Positions 2,522 through 9,766 of a DNA stretch of 64,000 nucleotides are shown piece after piece. Both the position numbers and the translations under genes were made by a program. Numbering within the stretch: the stretch's first letter is position 1; every line of letters starts with the position of its first letter. This stretch comes from Bacteroidota bacterium (GTDB lineage: Bacteria; Bacteroidota; Bacteroidia; 2-12-FULL-35-15), in assembly GCA_029237775.1 (NCBI GenBank), contig JAQZBR010000002.1:434001-498000 (forward strand), read 5' to 3'. A model generated the notes under the pieces. It saw only the letters and a list, made by a program, of their open reading frames with translations. It was not told the DNA's origin and did not search any database.

Positions 2522-3829
2522 TTAAAGCTTAAGGGCTTTCGCATGCCGCGAAGATTTTGCAGGATTCCAGTTGTCTTTATAGGAAGCTTTGAAAAACAGC
2601 TCCTGGATGTAAGCCACGGTTCGTACAATGCGAAGAAAATATCCGAAGTAAATAACCATTAAAGGAAGATAGATCAGAAAATAGCTTACACTTTCATTTT
2701 TCCTGTCCCTGAATAATGAAAAGACAATGAACTTTACGAAATTATTGACTGTGTATAAAAGCAAGTTCATTGGTAAGATAAAGATCAATTGACCGGTAAA
2801 ATTTATGATCATGTCAAACACATAGAAATACCACTTGATATTAAGGATCAGGTTATAAGTGATATTCTCAACAAATGAAATGAAGTTTGAGAAACGGAAC
2901 GAATCATTAGGAAAGAACACATCGCGATGCTTCCTTAATCTGAAACGAATTAACGATTTATCCCAGCGGAGGCGTTGTTTCATTAACTTCTTAAAAGTAA
3001 CAGGAACACTTGTCTGGCAAACCGCAGTTGGTTCAAAGTGGATCTTGTAGCCCAACTTGCGCACTTTTACAGTAATATCTCCATCCAGACCAGGACCTAT
3101 ATCCCAGCCACCTAGCCTGTCAAGAGCTTCTTTACTGAATGCTCCGAATGCCCCGGAGATAACGCGATAGATTCCTAACTCACTGGTAGCAATTCTTCCG
3201 ATAGAGATAGTATCATTATATTCGATCGCCTGAAGTGTTGCACAAAGACTTTCTTTATAGTTCCTTACCTGTACATTTCCTCCAACTGCTCCGATATTCA
3301 GATCATAAAAAAAAGGAACCAGAATATTCTCAATGGCATCCCGATCATACGAACAATCAGCATCCATATGAATGACATACTTTCCCTTCGCGTAGCGTAA
3401 TCCCAGGTTTGCCGCGGAAGCCTTTCCTCCTCGTACATCATTGCGGTAAAAAGCGTCAATATATCCGCTGTTCTTTAAACTCCGGCATATCTGAGGTGTT
3501 TGATCATCAGAGCCATCGTCTATAATTATGAGCTCGAAGTTCTTATATGTTTGTTCTTTTAAAGAATTAGCAAGCTTGTAAATATGTCTTCCCTCATTTT
3601 TACCAGGAACGATAATACTTACAAAAGGTTTCTTTTCCCAAAGTGAAAGGCGCGCATCAGCGACCCGCTTTTTCCGGAAGATTGACGTGAAACGCCATAG
3701 TAGAATTGTGGTTATATCGACTAAGAAAAAACGAAAGAACTCAAAAATGAAAAAGAAATAAAACATACGAAACAGCTTTGCTGCATCAACAGCTGTCATG
3801 TAGTTTATAAACTCATCCAGGAATCTCAT
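2522..3829 (-). CDS. Processive family 2 glycosyltransferase (exopolysaccharide synthase-like)
   Basis: 435 aa membrane glycosyltransferase of the BcsA/PgaC/HasA type. A hydrophobic N-terminal segment (about 18-46) precedes the GT2 core. Visible motifs: VSIIVPGKNEG (70-80), DDG (104-106), the metal-binding DAD (156-158), an LDGD in the place of the TED acceptor motif (248-251), and QRLRW (285-289), the signature of processive synthases. Two or three further membrane segments follow (about 325-410), as expected for a polymer channel. It is the last gene of the leftward operon from 8447, starting directly after the preceding stop. The context (regulator, HlyD-like adaptor, TolC-like channel) points to synthesis and export of a surface polysaccharide; which sugar cannot be read from sequence. 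Confidence 0.88.
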   Translation of the reverse strand: MRFLDEFINYMTAVDAAKLFRMFYFFFIFEFFRFFLVDITTILLWRFTSIFRKKRVADARLSLWEKKPFVSIIVPGKNEGRHIYKLANSLKEQTYKNFELIIIDDGSDDQTPQICRSLKNSGYIDAFYRNDVRGGKASAANLGLRYAKGKYVIHMDADCSYDRDAIENILVPFFYDLNIGAVGGNVQVRNYKESLCATLQAIEYNDTISIGRIATSELGIYRVISGAFGAFSKEALDRLGGWDIGPGLDGDITVKVRKLGYKIHFEPTAVCQTSVPVTFKKLMKQRLRWDKSLIRFRLRKHRDVFFPNDSFRFSNFISFVENITYNLILNIKWYFYVFDMIINFTGQLIFILPMNLLLYTVNNFVKFIVFSLFRDRKNESVSYFLIYLPLMVIYFGYFLRIVRTVAYIQELFFKASYKDNWNPAKSSRHAKALKL

Positions 3830-5260
3830 TTAAGCAAACAGATCTTTTGTAAGTTCCTGCAGTTGACTTTCTGCCTTATTGTGAGGGTTCAAGATCTTCA
3901 CCTTATAAATGATGGTAACTTTGAATGCATTAAAATTATTTAAGATCAGGTTCTCAATCAAAATGCTCAAATGCATCATTTGCTGCTCAGCCTGCATTGC
4001 ATCTGTGTTGATAAGGCAAAGGTATAAAGTGGAAGAATTCTCAAAAGCAATAAAATCGGATGGCTTGATGTTCTCTCTGATCACACGTACAAGATCCTCA
4101 AGTAATTCCTTCTGCGCTCTTTTTCCGATCTGATTATATAACTCAAAAATATTTTCAAGATGAACGAGAGCCAGAGTTGTCTTTTGCAACTGATTTTCTT
4201 TGATACGTTCCAGCTCATAATGCAACATCACTTTCAGAGTAGGCATGTTAATGGTTCCGAATATATCTTCGATTTCCTGCCCGGTTGAAAGGAATCCATT
4301 TGTTGCAGCTGAACGTCCCTTTTTTGTTAGCTTGTAAATATTAATCGATTTCGGAACAAGATACTGAACATCAACATCCTGCTCACAGGAAATACATTTT
4401 GCCTTTACAAAAAAGTCCTGGAAATTATTATCGCAATTATTGCAGTGATGTATAATGGAAGGCTTGTCGTAATCCACACCTATGTGGCGCAAGGCCTTGT
4501 TACATTTCGGGCAGGTAAGTGTATTGTCGATCGGGTTCTTGAAATCAGAGATTGGCCCGATGAATGCGCAAGGAAAGTGATGGATCAGGTCTTCTGACTT
4601 TGAATTAGACGAATTACAATGAGGACAAACCTCACGATAACTTAAGAACCCACTGCTGCAATGATTGCAGAGATATACCCTTTCATGAAAATCAGGCCAG
4701 ATCAAACCTTCTCTTTCTGCCCATTCAAGAATATCCAGCACCTGTGCTTCCTCATCGTTATCAAAATTCACAGAGATCTCGGGATATGTATAACCAATGA
4801 TCGAATGAAGATCGACAAAAGGTTTGAGTGTGCGCAGATCCCTTGTGTACATAAAATTAAGCACCTTTTTGATAGCCTGGGCTTCAAACGAAGGGATCAG
4901 CTGGTAATCAAGCTGTGTTGTTTTATAAAAAATATGCTTGGCTGTTTCTGCGATCTCTTTTATCTGGTCATACGAATATACCAGTCCATCATGTAAATAA
5001 TTCAGAATTGGATCTTTCGATACTTTGTAATTGATCAGAAAAATAGGTTTAAGATAAAACTCCGGATTATAATGCGCCCGGATCTTTTTAACGATAAACC
5101 TCGCAAATTCTGCATCTTTCGCGTCAACCACTACAGCATCATATCCCATAAGATGCTCGATCTTAAGGTTGCTGTTGTTATCCATAATATAAAATATAAT
5201 GTTATTATATTCTATCTTATTATCTCTTACCTCAATTTTGCCTTCAGTTATATCTGGCAT
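3830..5260 (-). CDS. TackOD1 zinc-domain protein with degenerate GGDEF domain, likely regulator of the exopolysaccharide operon
   Basis: 476 aa, cytoplasmic. Residues 1-115 resemble a receiver-like domain. The middle (about 120-310) is a TackOD1-type metal-binding domain with paired cysteines at 198/201, 212/215, 250/253, 273/276 and 289/292, the IHHF and LRHIGVDYDKP motifs, and a short helical N-part. The C-terminus (about 340-470) aligns by eye with a GGDEF domain (LALVHLENIFELYNQIG, then ELLEDLVRVIR), but at the GGDEF position the sequence is ENSST (407-411), so cyclase activity is not expected. It may bind a ligand or nucleotide or act as a scaffold (inference). It is flanked without gaps by the HlyD-like and GT2 genes. 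TackOD1 was named from archaeal signal-transduction proteins. Confidence 0.75.
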   Translation of the reverse strand: MPDITEGKIEVRDNKIEYNNIIFYIMDNNSNLKIEHLMGYDAVVVDAKDAEFARFIVKKIRAHYNPEFYLKPIFLINYKVSKDPILNYLHDGLVYSYDQIKEIAETAKHIFYKTTQLDYQLIPSFEAQAIKKVLNFMYTRDLRTLKPFVDLHSIIGYTYPEISVNFDNDEEAQVLDILEWAEREGLIWPDFHERVYLCNHCSSGFLSYREVCPHCNSSNSKSEDLIHHFPCAFIGPISDFKNPIDNTLTCPKCNKALRHIGVDYDKPSIIHHCNNCDNNFQDFFVKAKCISCEQDVDVQYLVPKSINIYKLTKKGRSAATNGFLSTGQEIEDIFGTINMPTLKVMLHYELERIKENQLQKTTLALVHLENIFELYNQIGKRAQKELLEDLVRVIRENIKPSDFIAFENSSTLYLCLINTDAMQAEQQMMHLSILIENLILNNFNAFKVTIIYKVKILNPHNKAESQLQELTKDLFA

Positions 5261-5263
5261 TTC

Positions 5264-6340
5264 TCAATATTTAAATTTACTGATGGTTACACTCATTTTA
5301 TAGAAAGCGCGCCAATGTTCATAATCACTATCGTTCACAGGATAAATATCTGCAGAGATCGTCCTGGTAGTTGGCTCGTATCTTTTCTGAAACTCATCAG
5401 GCAATGGATATGTTGCATAGTAAAACCGTTTAATAATTCCCTGGCTTACACTTCCATCAGGAAAGGTTAGCTTCATGATATCGCCCTCCTTAAAATAATT
5501 GAGGTCTTCCTGCTCAAAGAAAGCTTTCACAAACATCGGAGTGTTTTTATGGATCGCCATGATCTGTTCCGACTTCAGAGCAACTTCGTACTGATGTGTA
5601 TATAAACGTGTTATGCTTCCATCTATGGGTGAATAGAAAACCCTTGGCGTATTCTCTTCATCATTGCCCGCACCGCTTAATGATCCGTTTTTCACATTTT
5701 TAATTCCCGAACTCCGCGCCATTCCTGCCAGCTGTGATATCAAGCCATTGAGCTGCTTATTCTCACTATCAATTTTTTCTATATTTGTTTTAAGCCGTAA
5801 TATTTCGTTCTGAACAAATTCCAGGCGGTTCTTCGGAAGCACATCAAGAACAACTTCATTTTGGAGTCGCTGCAACTCACCCTGATAGCTTTTTATCAGT
5901 GATTGAGATTCAACCTTGTCAATGTTGTTAAATGCAATTCTCTTCTTCAGGGCATACTTTTCTTTCTCTATCCAGTCCCATTCATTACTATAAGCGGTTG
6001 AACCGAAACTCCCTAACAAAGAAGAATTTCCCCACACATTATCTTTATCCAGGGCATAAGTAAATAACGAATCCCCCACTTTCACGGTGTCACCCTCTTC
6101 TTTGTGATATTGGAGGATCCTGCAATCATCGGTTAAACGAATGCTTACATTTTCAAACAATACTTGACCGTCTGCTTTAATAAAAAAGACTTTATTGATC
6201 AGGTAATAACCCAGAAAGCCCAGAAGCAGCGCCAGAAACACAACATAGACCACGCGGTCCCAGTTATATTTGACTTTACGGACTTCATCGCTCATCACGC
6301 GAATTGCAGCACCTTTTCTTTTAAAATCTAAGCTTCTCAA
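5264..6340 (-). CDS. HlyD-like membrane fusion (adaptor) protein
   Basis: 358 aa. A cytoplasmic N-terminus, one membrane helix (about 29-52), then a periplasmic adaptor. A biotinyl-lipoyl-like half motif is seen near ILQYHKEEGDTVKVGDSLF, a coiled-coil hairpin at about 125-205, the second lipoyl half near VFYSPIDGSITRLY, and a beta-barrel region containing FFEQEDLNYFKEGD. Family knowledge: such adaptors connect an inner-membrane machine to a TolC-like outer-membrane channel, and Alg44 of the alginate system has a comparable periplasmic part. It sits 13 nt after the TolC-like gene and 3 nt before the TackOD1 gene, so the four genes are surely co-transcribed. No ABC or RND pump is present, so the partner is probably the GT2 synthase. 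Confidence 0.82.
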   Translation of the reverse strand: MRSLDFKRKGAAIRVMSDEVRKVKYNWDRVVYVVFLALLLGFLGYYLINKVFFIKADGQVLFENVSIRLTDDCRILQYHKEEGDTVKVGDSLFTYALDKDNVWGNSSLLGSFGSTAYSNEWDWIEKEKYALKKRIAFNNIDKVESQSLIKSYQGELQRLQNEVVLDVLPKNRLEFVQNEILRLKTNIEKIDSENKQLNGLISQLAGMARSSGIKNVKNGSLSGAGNDEENTPRVFYSPIDGSITRLYTHQYEVALKSEQIMAIHKNTPMFVKAFFEQEDLNYFKEGDIMKLTFPDGSVSQGIIKRFYYATYPLPDEFQKRYEPTTRTISADIYPVNDSDYEHWRAFYKMSVTISKFKY

Positions 6341-6353
6341 AATTTATAGTTTA

Positions 6354-8447
6354 TTACTTATCACCTCCAACATTCAACTCATCCAGTTTGATAAAAGATC
6401 CGAGATCATGCATTGCAAACCGGGTTGTATTCAAACCTGCAGATAATTCCGTGATCAGCTTTTCAAATTCGTTCCTGTTTTTAAAATCGGCAGCACGTAA
6501 AGCAATCACTGTGCGGTTGGCGGCATTTGAAAATTCCTCTTTCACTTTCCTTGTTATAAAATCTGCATCAGCATGTTCGTATGCCATCAAATAAACATTA
6601 TCTGATAACTCATATATCTTTTTGAGAGTTTCTTCCGGATAAAAAACAGGTATAGAAACATTTAGCTTTAATCCCTTTGATGAACAAAGGCTTTTTGCTT
6701 TGCCAAGCAAGGCAATGTAATTAGTGAGATGCTCCTCCTTTTTTTCCTGCCAGTCAGCAAGAGTATGTGGTTCAACATCCAAATGAAGGGCAACGGTCTT
6801 ACTTAGATCCAATCCGCTCAACGTTTTTTCCATATGGTTTACAGGATCCTTGTCAGAGAGAAGTTCGTTGCTCCCGATCATCACTTCCGTTGTAATCCCC
6901 GCAGCCGAAAGCTTCGAGATGACAGCTGAAGCTTGCAATTTATTCTGCCCATCCTTTCTCACGGAGATAATTGCATTCGATATTTTATTTAGGTGAAGGT
7001 ATTCAAGAATATAATTCTCATCATATTTCATTTGCACATCAGACCAGATATAAATCGACCTATCGAGAATTGCACCCGGGATTTCTGATCTGTTCACTGA
7101 AAATTCCTTCACCAACGATAAGACATCGGCATCCGGAGTTTTCGTGATCAGATCCAGAAGCTGTAAGTACATTTCCTGCTGGAGATCGAGCATTTCAATT
7201 TCAACTGACAGCATCTCGTCCAACAGATTAAGCGCTGTCACCGGGTTAAATTCAAGATCGTTAAACTTTTCCTTAACACGCTCTATGCGGATAAGCTCCT
7301 CATACTTTTTATGTTTCTCATAAAAATTATTGTATTGTTTAAGCTTATATCTAAACTCATATACTGAATTTATGATTCCCGAATTTTGTTCTGTACCTGC
7401 TATCTTCTGATCAAACCTGATCAGATCCATTTTCGTATTTACTACATCACGACTTGCTTTAGAACCAAGCGGCAGAGGAACCGAAACACTTAAACCGGCT
7501 GAGAGGAAATCACGGTTAGAAAGGTTAGCATTAGTAATATCATAGTAATTATATCGTACCTGTGTTTTCAGATTGATCTCTTTCCAAAATTTATTTTCCA
7601 GCTCAAGGTTCTTCTGTAATAGCTTGAGAATGCTGTCGTTCCCATTATTGTACGAAAAGTTTTGCAGTCTTTCAATATCCAGGTCGAACAAAGGAAAAAT
7701 ATTTACCGGGATTGCCTGCGCTTTGAACTCATTTTTCAATTGGTCGTTGTACGCACGGTAGATCTGAAACATGCTGCTCACGTCAACTTGTTGTTGAATG
7801 ATCTGCATCAGGTCGAGTTTTTGCAAGTGCTTCATCAGATACAATTCGTTTGCGACATCCAGCTTGTCATCAATGATCTGCTGCCTCTCTTCAAGGAGCT
7901 TTATTTTATGAGTGTTAAAAGCAAAAATGATCTTATGCGATATATTCAGATAATCACTTGCACTTATTTTAATAGCCGGCTTCAGGGAATTAATGATTTT
8001 TTCGTTCTTTATGATCTGCTGTTTATACCTGCTGCTCAGGTAGCCGTCAGCAAGAATATTCCAGTCGAGGCCGGCTTGTAAACGTCTGTTGTAAACCAAT
8101 TCATCATCGCCCAAGCCCGGATTAAAATTTTGCTGGTAACTCCCGACCGCTGAAAGGCCAAAATTTAATTTCTCCTTTTTTAATCTGGCTTCGTCATAAG
8201 CATTCAGATAACCTGTTCGGGAATTTGCATCGCTGTTTACTTTATAGAGATCAGATATAATGGAAGTGTTTTCGAACTTTGGATGTCGGTTAGATAGTTC
8301 ATTGTATTTCTTCCAAAAGCCTTCAAGAGTATTAATCTTTGAGCTTATTACTGAATCTTTGTAAATTCTTTGCTGAGAATAGGAATGGCCAAAGAACACA
8401 CAAAAAAAGTGCAGGGCAATCAAACGAATTGCTTGTGTTCTGATCAT
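6354..8447 (-). CDS. TolC-like outer membrane channel fused to a glycosidase-like TIM-barrel domain
   Basis: 697 aa, first gene of the leftward operon. A signal peptide ends near residue 25. Residues about 60-445 form an outer-membrane efflux protein (TolC family) with two repeats of amphipathic strands and long coiled coils (for example SAGLSVSVPLPLGS in the second). Residues about 460-697 form a separate domain resembling a glycoside-hydrolase barrel: strand ends AIISVRKDG, TTEVMIGS, ALHLDVEPHTLADW (D557, E559 as possible catalytic acids), LKLNVSIPVFYP and NVYLMAYEH, recalling GH18-like folds. Ordinary TolC proteins lack this tail. Inference: the barrel trims or edits the exported polysaccharide. 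The exact glycosidase family is not assigned. Confidence 0.75.
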   Translation of the reverse strand: MIRTQAIRLIALHFFCVFFGHSYSQQRIYKDSVISSKINTLEGFWKKYNELSNRHPKFENTSIISDLYKVNSDANSRTGYLNAYDEARLKKEKLNFGLSAVGSYQQNFNPGLGDDELVYNRRLQAGLDWNILADGYLSSRYKQQIIKNEKIINSLKPAIKISASDYLNISHKIIFAFNTHKIKLLEERQQIIDDKLDVANELYLMKHLQKLDLMQIIQQQVDVSSMFQIYRAYNDQLKNEFKAQAIPVNIFPLFDLDIERLQNFSYNNGNDSILKLLQKNLELENKFWKEINLKTQVRYNYYDITNANLSNRDFLSAGLSVSVPLPLGSKASRDVVNTKMDLIRFDQKIAGTEQNSGIINSVYEFRYKLKQYNNFYEKHKKYEELIRIERVKEKFNDLEFNPVTALNLLDEMLSVEIEMLDLQQEMYLQLLDLITKTPDADVLSLVKEFSVNRSEIPGAILDRSIYIWSDVQMKYDENYILEYLHLNKISNAIISVRKDGQNKLQASAVISKLSAAGITTEVMIGSNELLSDKDPVNHMEKTLSGLDLSKTVALHLDVEPHTLADWQEKKEEHLTNYIALLGKAKSLCSSKGLKLNVSIPVFYPEETLKKIYELSDNVYLMAYEHADADFITRKVKEEFSNAANRTVIALRAADFKNRNEFEKLITELSAGLNTTRFAMHDLGSFIKLDELNVGGDK

Positions 8448-8555: not shown

Positions 8556-9506
8556 TCAGAGCTTCTTTTCTACAAGATATTTATTACGATCGGATGAATT
8601 TCTGGAAACCAGTTCGCCTAAAAATCCTGCAAGGAAAAGTTGCGTACCAATGATCATTGCGACAAGAGCGATGTAAAACAGCGGCTTGTCGGTAACTTCA
8701 CGGGTGGGAATATGAAAAGCCGACTTATATATTTTTTCGCCAACCAACCATAGTGTGAGAGCGCCACCGGCAAAGAAACTGAGAGTACCGTATAAACCAA
8801 AAAAATGCATGGGTCGCTTACCGAACTTCGACATGAAGGTGATTGACATCAGATCCAGAAACCCATTTATGAAACGTTCGAATCCGAACTTGGTAGTGCC
8901 GTATTTGCGTTCACGATGAGCAACTTCCTTCTCTTCTATCTTTGTAAATCCTGCCCACTTTGCGATTACCGGAATATAGCGGTGCATTTCACCGTAAACT
9001 TCAATGCTCTTTACAACATCTTTTCTATATGCTTTGAGCCCGCAGTTAAAATCGTGAAGATTGTTGATGCCACTCGTTTTTCTGGTTGCCCAGTTAAAAA
9101 GCTTCGTAGGAATAGTTTTACTGATCGGATCGTAACGTTTCTTTTTCCAGCCTGAAACGAGATCATGACCGTCAGTGATGATCATTTTATACAAGTCAGG
9201 AATCTCGTCCGGAGAATCCTGAAGATCTGCATCCATAGTGATGATCACATCGCCCTGAGCAGCTTCAAATCCAACATTCAGAGCAGCAGATTTACCATAG
9301 TTTCTGCGAAACTTGATCCCATGAACGTTTGGGTTCTTCGAGGCGAGGGCTTCAATTACTAACCAGGATCTGTCTTTGCTTCCGTCATCTATAAAAAGTA
9401 TCTCATAGCTAAAACTGGCCTCCTGCATTACTTTCACGATCCAATCGTGAAGCTCAGGCAAAGATTCGTCTTCATTAAAAAGAGGTATGACAACGGAAAT
9501 ATTCAT
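8556..9506 (-). CDS. Polyprenyl-phosphate glycosyltransferase, GT2 DPM1/GtrB type
   Basis: 316 aa. GT2 domain with SVVIPLFNEDESLPEL, LFIDDGSKDRSW, GKSAALNVGFEAA and the metal site MDADLQD, followed by two C-terminal membrane helices (about 240-300) as in GtrB/ArnC-like bactoprenol-phosphate sugar transferases. It transfers a sugar from a nucleotide donor to undecaprenyl phosphate at the inner membrane. The start is placed at the ATG at 9506: the product then begins MNISVVIPLFNE as usual for the family, and a -7 element ends five bases before it. A longer reading back to 9725 would run through the SRP RNA gene on the other strand and is rejected. Confidence 0.9.
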   Translation of the reverse strand: MNISVVIPLFNEDESLPELHDWIVKVMQEASFSYEILFIDDGSKDRSWLVIEALASKNPNVHGIKFRRNYGKSAALNVGFEAAQGDVIITMDADLQDSPDEIPDLYKMIITDGHDLVSGWKKKRYDPISKTIPTKLFNWATRKTSGINNLHDFNCGLKAYRKDVVKSIEVYGEMHRYIPVIAKWAGFTKIEEKEVAHRERKYGTTKFGFERFINGFLDLMSITFMSKFGKRPMHFFGLYGTLSFFAGGALTLWLVGEKIYKSAFHIPTREVTDKPLFYIALVAMIIGTQLFLAGFLGELVSRNSSDRNKYLVEKKL

Positions 9507-9511
9507 TGCAA

Positions 9512-9519
9512 CAAATATA
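9512..9519 (-). promoter_or_regulatory. -7 promoter element, predicted leaderless
   Basis: TATATTTG on the minus strand, an exact TAnnTTTG match, with its last base five bases before the ATG at 9506. Initiation at the usual distance would place the +1 at or next to the start codon. Confidence 0.5.
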
Positions 9520-9636
9520 TACAAATTACCGATGAGCATTAACATCAAGGCCAATAACTCTTCAAAACCTCCGGAATTAAGAACTTTTAACAGCTTATTT
9601 AAAACTGTGTTTTTTCTATGAAAACAAAAATTAAAG

Positions 9637-9666
9637 TCTGCAAATTCAAAAAAATTCCTACTTTTG
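9637..9666 (+). promoter_or_regulatory. Promoter of the SRP RNA gene
   Basis: TACTTTTG at 9659-9666 matches the Bacteroidota -7 consensus exactly. A TCTG at 9637-9640, 18 nt upstream, is a weak -33 box. The RNA 5' end follows about four bases later. Confidence 0.6.
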
Positions 9667-9669
9667 TGC

Positions 9670-9766
9670 GGGGTAAGTCTTATACAAGCAGCTCCCTTTA
9701 ATCCTCCAGGTGCGGAAGCAAGCAAAGGTAACAGGTTGAGCGCTGTGCTATGAGTAGCTTACCCCT
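9670..9766 (+). ncRNA. ffs: Signal recognition particle RNA, small bacterial type
   Basis: About 97 nt. The ends pair (GGGGTAAG 9670-9677 with CTTACCCC 9758-9765). The apical region carries the conserved SRP RNA loop sequence around CCAGGTGCGGAAGCAAGCA (9705-9723), comparable to the E. coli 4.5S GGTCCGGAAGGAAGCA tetraloop and internal loop, and the returning strand contains GTAACAGG. A T-rich run (9766-9776) directly after the closing helix serves as terminator, and an exact -7 element lies just upstream. The RNA binds Ffh and, with FtsY (encoded at 22103), targets membrane proteins. It is too short to code for anything; open frames across it are chance. Confidence 0.9.

Follow-up and report, generated by a model that had tools for sequence, protein, structure and literature searches.

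Well-studied synthase-dependent exopolysaccharide systems contain a polymer-cutting enzyme in the periplasm, and it is still debated whether this enzyme serves clean-up, length control or release. In known systems this hydrolase is paired with the export channel (PMC9384988, PMC5933820). AlgL, for instance, clears polymer from the periplasm, and where hydrolase and deacetylase act at the channel, binding to the channel TPR domain raises their activity (PMC9384988). For a hydrolase fused to the pore itself we found one described parallel, BcsZ-BcsC of Zymomonas, and the open-access literature yielded no described fusion of a hydrolase to TolC.

Here, we analysed a stretch of 64,000 nucleotides from a Bacteroidota bacterium (hereafter the window), which carries such a fusion at the head of a tight operon (gaps of 13, 3 and 0 nt, all genes on the minus strand; Table 1). 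The fusion gene is one open frame with an unchanged junction in more than 20 independent genomes, at 27–58% full-length identity, and is therefore neither a chance event nor an assembly artefact. Likewise, this conservation and the clustering of invariant residues at the active site ruled out a chance resemblance or a run-on of the reading frame. Mean conservation was 46.5% for the barrel versus 46.3% for the TolC part, and 36.6% versus 31.4% in distant pairs.

Table 1. Features of the fusion gene, its operon and associated genes. Positions are those of the window unless a locus of a relative is named.
Feature	Position	Strand	Basis or remark
TolC-barrel fusion protein, 697 aa	6354..8447	−	First gene of operon; single ORF and homologues of identical architecture
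TolC-fold domain, residues 63–444; two plus two membrane strands, long periplasmic helices	7116..8261	−	VIA; Pfam in relatives
GH18-like (beta/alpha)8 barrel, residues 460–697; barrel fold over 460–695	6354..7070	−	pLDDT 93.6, VIA, hhalign
Asp557-Val-Glu559, D-x-E pair, end of beta4	6771..6779	−	Invariant; aligned to GH18 catalytic D-x-E
Met621-Ala-Tyr623-Glu624, counterpart of GH18 M-x-Y-D, end of beta6	6576..6587	−	Aligned to GH18 MxYD
HlyD/EmrA-like periplasmic adaptor, 358 aa, second gene	5264..6340	−	PF13437 22.8 bits, over cut-off; TIGR00998 E 3.4e-9
Regulator, third gene: degenerate receiver-like N-terminus, TackOD1 zinc domain, degenerate GGDEF	3830..5260	−	PF18551 E 1.3e-51
Processive family-2 glycosyltransferase (GT2), PgaC/NodC-like, fourth gene	2522..3829	−	PF00535 E 1.8e-29
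Second GT2 gene, upstream of operon, same direction	8556..9725	−	Beside operon only within genus
TviB-like UDP-GlcNAc dehydrogenase	L088:7719-9095, L089:7519-8901, L090:5065-6441, L091:4744-6120		Nearest TviB, E 4.7e-141, under equivalog cut-off
CE4-like deacetylase beside operon	L054:3817-5961, L047:3-2015, L160:9687-11837		In L160 the fifth gene, after GT2

An earlier note, made from the letters of the window, had read the N-terminal part of the protein as a TolC-family channel. In agreement with this, residues 63–444 of the predicted full-length model matched TolC by VIA (1ek9, Z 17.8), with a still higher score for 7ng9 (Z 18.7, rmsd 5.3 over 358 residues). The predicted model has the fold of a TolC protomer, a helical periplasmic barrel with 2+2 membrane strands (residues 98–105, 122–130, 292–300 and 314–322). 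By profile, the window protein scored below threshold for PF02321 (E 0.013, 15.7 bits versus a cut-off of 22), and 17 of 23 homologues matched it at E ≤ 0.01 (best E 1.5e-9). The placement of the two domains relative to each other is uncertain, because the full-length model reached a pLDDT of 78.7 and a pTM of 0.51. Some relatives (L012, L022–L025, L160) carry an additional N-terminal domain of about 200 aa with YCF48/BNR-type repeats (PF14870, E 1.2e-17 in L012 and 3.5e-11 in L025), which makes the TolC-barrel channel a hub for added domains.

For the C-terminal part, the earlier note had proposed a glycosidase-like TIM barrel of the GH18 type, with the motifs HLDVEPH (H555-L-D557-V-E559-P-H) and VYLMAYEH (V-Y-L-M621-A-Y623-E624-H) at strand ends. 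Both motifs are where it placed them, and the span 6354–7070 corresponds exactly to residues 460–697. We predicted the structure of residues 458–697 from an alignment of 25 sequences of the window and its relatives, and the model (mean pLDDT 93.6, pTM 0.91) showed eight strands with a helix after each, that is, a (beta/alpha)8 fold of the GH18/PgaB type according to Foldseek and VIA. The best Foldseek matches in the PDB were, among other TIM barrels, a Chromobacterium chitinase, E. coli PgaB and the spore enzyme SleL. A viral fold library gave only uninformative matches, to glycoside hydrolase-like and other TIM barrels. GH18-type proteins and PgaB took the top VIA ranks, with Z scores of 17.5–19.6 over 214–231 residues (1jnd, Z 19.6, rmsd 3.0 over 226; 4s3j, 18.9; 4p7o and 4wiw, 18.8 each); 4p7o and 6au1 (Z 18.4) represent the overall fold similarity to the PgaB (GH153) type.

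A profile of the barrel aligned by hhalign with a GH18 profile built from the same genomes (probability 93%, E 3.5e-7), placing HLDVEPH on DGIDIDWE and VYLMAYE on INIMTYD. As an unrelated TIM barrel with a likewise high Foldseek rank, tryptophan synthase alpha served as the control; it gave 1.1%, which ruled out the explanation that any TIM barrel would match GH18. Pfam GH18 (PF00704) approached its cut-off in the relative L092 (28.5 bits, E 1.6e-6, versus 29.6), and gave no match in the window protein itself. Together, profiles and predicted fold support a relationship of the barrel to GH18. Strict GH18 membership, as a reading of the earlier proposal, did not hold: this short domain (about 235 aa) has neither the first aspartates of the DxxDxDxE motif nor the beta8 Trp, and it lacks the usual insertion, so that it is GH18-like rather than a member of GH18.

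Other assignments were dropped. Direct membership of GH153 was ruled out by a profile search of the window genome, which gave no match to PF14883 (GHL13/GH153). Pfam matches to GH6 and Spherulin4 (GH135) were weak, confined to single members rather than family-wide, and the motif differs (HLDVEP). Searching the PDB by sequence with the single window protein returned nothing of note. The best sequence match among solved structures is 10yv from Cellulomonas fimi (E 1.1e-4), which has the L-D-V-E-P beta4 motif in common with the barrel but is a stand-alone protein of 275 aa, and the alignment takes in only part of the barrel. It was deposited as a “putative GH97”, and in view of the common LDVEP motif this name may deserve a check. 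Weak matches to the barrel profile (E 2e-9 to 7e-5) were also seen in three other proteins of the phylum (L099:4009-5466, L100:1625-3952, L101:3759-5657), to which Pfam assigned no glycoside hydrolase family; judging by sequence, these are possible relatives of the barrel outside TolC.

Conservation is concentrated where an active site is expected. All 26 barrel homologues of a first set have His555, Asp557 and Glu559, and so do seven that are more distant, namely L098 and six from another class of the phylum, so the acid pair on which the earlier reading depended is retained by every homologue examined, the invariance of Asp557 and Glu559 spanning 23–58% identity. In the wider homologue set, 15 of the 16 invariant barrel columns lie at C-terminal strand ends, the active-site face (P = 6e-11, with the zone defined as the last two strand residues plus the next four, 48 of 240 residues). 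On beta4 the full DxxDxDxE is absent: the D-x-E is kept, the first Asp is replaced by other residues and the second (−4 position) by His. In the beta6 motif M and Y are invariant and the last residue is E in most of the class, E, G or Q in family f90 of the other class and D in L098. Where GH18 has its Trp, the end of beta8 reads His-Asp (once Gln-Asp and once Tyr-Asp).

These substitutions bear on whether the barrel is an enzyme. Since the first DxxDxDxE aspartates are replaced, Glu624 varies and the beta8 Trp is absent, the barrel might bind rather than cut: with little or no catalytic activity, it would serve as a carbohydrate-binding module by which the nascent polymer is guided or gated at the channel. 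Its top fold matches include the non-enzymatic chitinase-like proteins IDGF-2, BRP39 and Ym1, and chitinase-like lectins bind glycans; such lectins, however, typically lose the catalytic Glu. A binding role at an export channel also has a counterpart in the TPR domain of PgaA, which binds PNAG (PMC9384988). Against it, Asp557, Glu559 and other polar residues of the active-site face are invariant, and we regard a pure binding module as unlikely and a putative hydrolase as the better description.

The remaining genes of the operon point to a polysaccharide as the cargo. The GT2 has its D, D, D, QxxRW motifs present and conserved, its closest NCBIfam model is PgaC_IcaA (TIGR03937; E 3.5e-52, 177.7 bits versus an equivalog cut-off of 422.3, which is not reached), and NodC is among its better matches. 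Altogether the operon holds a processive GT2 with QxxRW, a regulator, a putative periplasmic enzyme domain and an outer-membrane pore of the TolC/HlyD type, with no TPR-porin; the second GT2 gene probably lies outside this core. The best named match of the adaptor is EmrA/EmrK, and proteins of the HlyD and TolC kind are mostly associated with drug efflux and type I secretion, as would be expected if the operon exported a small molecule or a protein while the GT2 made an unrelated cell-surface glycan. Yet none of the four conserved genes encodes an ABC or MFS transporter, the one integral membrane enzyme among their products is the GT2, whose gene is always adjacent, and the cyanobacterial XcsAB-TolC system is a proposed precedent (PMC12430437); we therefore consider export of another cargo very improbable. 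Beside the operon end, at 1919–2485 on the plus strand, the window encodes a small secreted-looking protein with three near-identical repeats of about 45 residues (SIQYYWNGNDNKWDAFEINLP), for which Pfam reports only DUF4258.

In the regulator, the GGDEF domain scored E 0.022, below the cut-off, and lacks the GGDEF motif itself, with D402 kept; of its RxxD-like site the Asp is kept and the Arg is mostly Lys. PelD of the Pel system is likewise a degenerate-GGDEF regulator. The receiver is degenerate in the clade of the window and intact in the f90 relative L094. At five f90 loci (L092–L095, L097) the N-terminal ~115 residues of the regulator are encoded by a small gene of their own, with the gene for a TackOD1 protein after it, a split arrangement that, on its sequence, is possibly a two-component switch for the synthase. 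TackOD1 is an archaeal output domain of obscure function that is also present in some bacteria (PMC5847659), and searches of the open-access literature found no bacterial work on TackOD1 operons.

Among 395 genomes sampled across the class of the window, the fusion was found in 22 (about 5%), a count that includes partial matches and G231, in which the barrel is mostly deleted. TackOD1 exceeded its cut-off in 23 of the same 395 genomes; 22 of these also match the fusion, and in the 23rd (G276) the contig ends just before the position of the channel. The order TolC-barrel, HlyD, TackOD1-GGDEF, GT2 showed no variation on any contig that extends far enough to reveal it, and the wider phylum sample showed the fusion operon in the f90 genomes too. 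A scan of genome contigs returned a single relative, one already in the set.

Five operons lack a complete barrel (L056, L088–L091), and in a midpoint-rooted tree of the other three genes they form one clade with support 1.0. In L056 (5898–7529, minus strand), what is left of the barrel is its opening pieces and its final HD strand, in order, without the central part that contains the acid pair, for which reason we favour loss of the barrel over a later gain elsewhere. In the other four operons a gene for a nucleotide-sugar dehydrogenase lies between those for HlyD and TackOD1, and no homologue of it was found in the fetched neighbourhoods of barrel-bearing operons. A switch of the polymer to uronic acid could have made a GH18-type enzyme useless; loss of the barrel and gain of the dehydrogenase fall in one clade, however, and thus count as one event rather than as independent evidence. 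Three of the L088–L091 operons also contain a DUF4114 protein, and G575 has both operon types, barrel-bearing and barrel-less, about 15 kb apart.

A further gene co-occurs with the fusion. It encodes a CE4-like deacetylase of ~700 residues with the CE4/NodB motifs THDxD and HSxxH and a type-IX secretion (T9SS) tail, and apart from the loci in Table 1 it lies near the operon, by coordinates, in G084 and G211. Full-length homologues were present in 23 of 37 carriers of the fusion versus 0 of 32 non-carriers (P 7e-9), and within the genus of the window in 8 of 10 carriers versus 0 of 13 (P 9e-5); these P values are optimistic, as the genomes share ancestry, although the contrast within one genus leaves little room for another explanation. 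Most f90 carriers are without this deacetylase, and the genome of the window (96.6% complete) contains none.

Both the barrel-less clade and the deacetylase bear on whether the barrel could act on the cell wall. The waist of TolC lies close to the wall, where a peptidoglycan hydrolase might open it locally for the channel and its adaptor, and the fold matches do include the wall-acting enzymes SleL and Cwp19; one relative, moreover, has a SPOR-like piece N-terminal to the channel (L019:928-1370, 16.7 bits versus a cut-off of 21). The other OEP-family proteins of the window genome, with open frames of 462–506 aa, are nevertheless too short for a barrel, and the barrel tracks the polysaccharide synthase operon and the deacetylase while being absent from the branch with the UDP-GlcNAc dehydrogenase, which leaves a wall hydrolase improbable.

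We consider it fairly likely that the fusion serves an uncharacterised synthase-dependent exopolysaccharide system as its outer-membrane channel, one with its own periplasmic hydrolase. According to this model, the inner-membrane GT2 would polymerise and extrude a GlcNAc-type polymer, probably under the control of the TackOD1/degenerate-GGDEF protein; the HlyD-like adaptor would join the synthase to a TolC-like trimer, and the polymer would leave through HlyD and TolC. One GH18-like barrel per TolC protomer, three per channel, would be held covalently at the periplasmic waist, performing in cis what PgaB, PelA, AlgL and BcsZ do as separate proteins, with Glu559 as the presumptive acid/base and Asp557 orienting the 2-acetamido group of the substrate. 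In most carriers of the class, the secreted deacetylase would then modify the product outside. The most likely task of the barrel would be to cut periplasmic polymer that has strayed or stalled, or else to limit chain length. A sealed HlyD-TolC tube, if formed, might keep polymer in transit out of its reach altogether.

The earlier note had suggested that secretion is coupled to trimming or release. The waist of a TolC channel is periplasmic, and because this topology sets the barrel at the waist and not at the exit, clean-up or length control is likelier than release outside; coupling to secretion, like catalysis, is putative. An enzyme-like domain that is a physical part of the channel, together with a barrel-less sister branch, makes its role testable by point mutation and by natural comparison. 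The barrel is also a candidate for a new family of glycoside hydrolases, with biofilm polymers as possible substrates.

On a larger scale, the locus may represent an undescribed class of synthase-dependent exopolysaccharide machine in Bacteroidota-type bacteria, made of an HlyD-TolC tube in place of a TPR-porin, with three hydrolases of a new GH18-related family per channel and a T9SS-secreted CE4 enzyme outside; the sister branch would have changed its polymer to one of uronic acid and dropped the hydrolase. We put this reading at slightly less than even odds. In the searchable literature we found no description of this combination, nor of the barrel family, the operon or the regulator. Compared with GH18 (PF00704), the barrel has the (beta/alpha)8 fold with the beta4 D-x-E and beta6 M-x-Y in register, but is short, misses the first Asp residues of DxxDxDxE and the beta8 Trp, has its best Pfam score just under the cut-off and is fused to TolC. 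The likeness to the PNAG system PgaABCD lies in a PgaC-like synthase, a hydrolase at the outer-membrane channel, a deacetylase in most class carriers and a similar barrel fold; here, however, TolC/HlyD takes the place of the TPR-porin PgaA, and deacetylase and hydrolase are separate proteins. In addition, PgaB has no equivalent of the Glu in the GH18 acid/base position (PMC5933820), whereas the barrel has E559. Pel (PelA/PelB/PelD) also places hydrolase and deacetylase at the export channel (PMC12022489), although its synthase, channel and regulator architecture are different and its hydrolase is not fused to the channel. The Zymomonas BcsZ-BcsC protein is, like the present one, a periplasmic hydrolase fused to an outer-membrane export pore (PMC7112194), but there a cellulase sits on a TPR-porin, and here a GH18-like barrel sits on TolC and is conserved across two classes. 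Finally, the cyanobacterial XcsAB-TolC cellulose system likewise comprises a GT2 synthase, an HlyD-like adaptor, TolC and a hydrolase (PMC12430437). In T. vulcanus its genes are scattered, XcsC is a separate endoglucanase and the model is without experimental validation, whereas here a single operon with a fused hydrolase offers a probable operon-encoded case of HlyD-TolC polysaccharide export, so far only a model in cyanobacteria.
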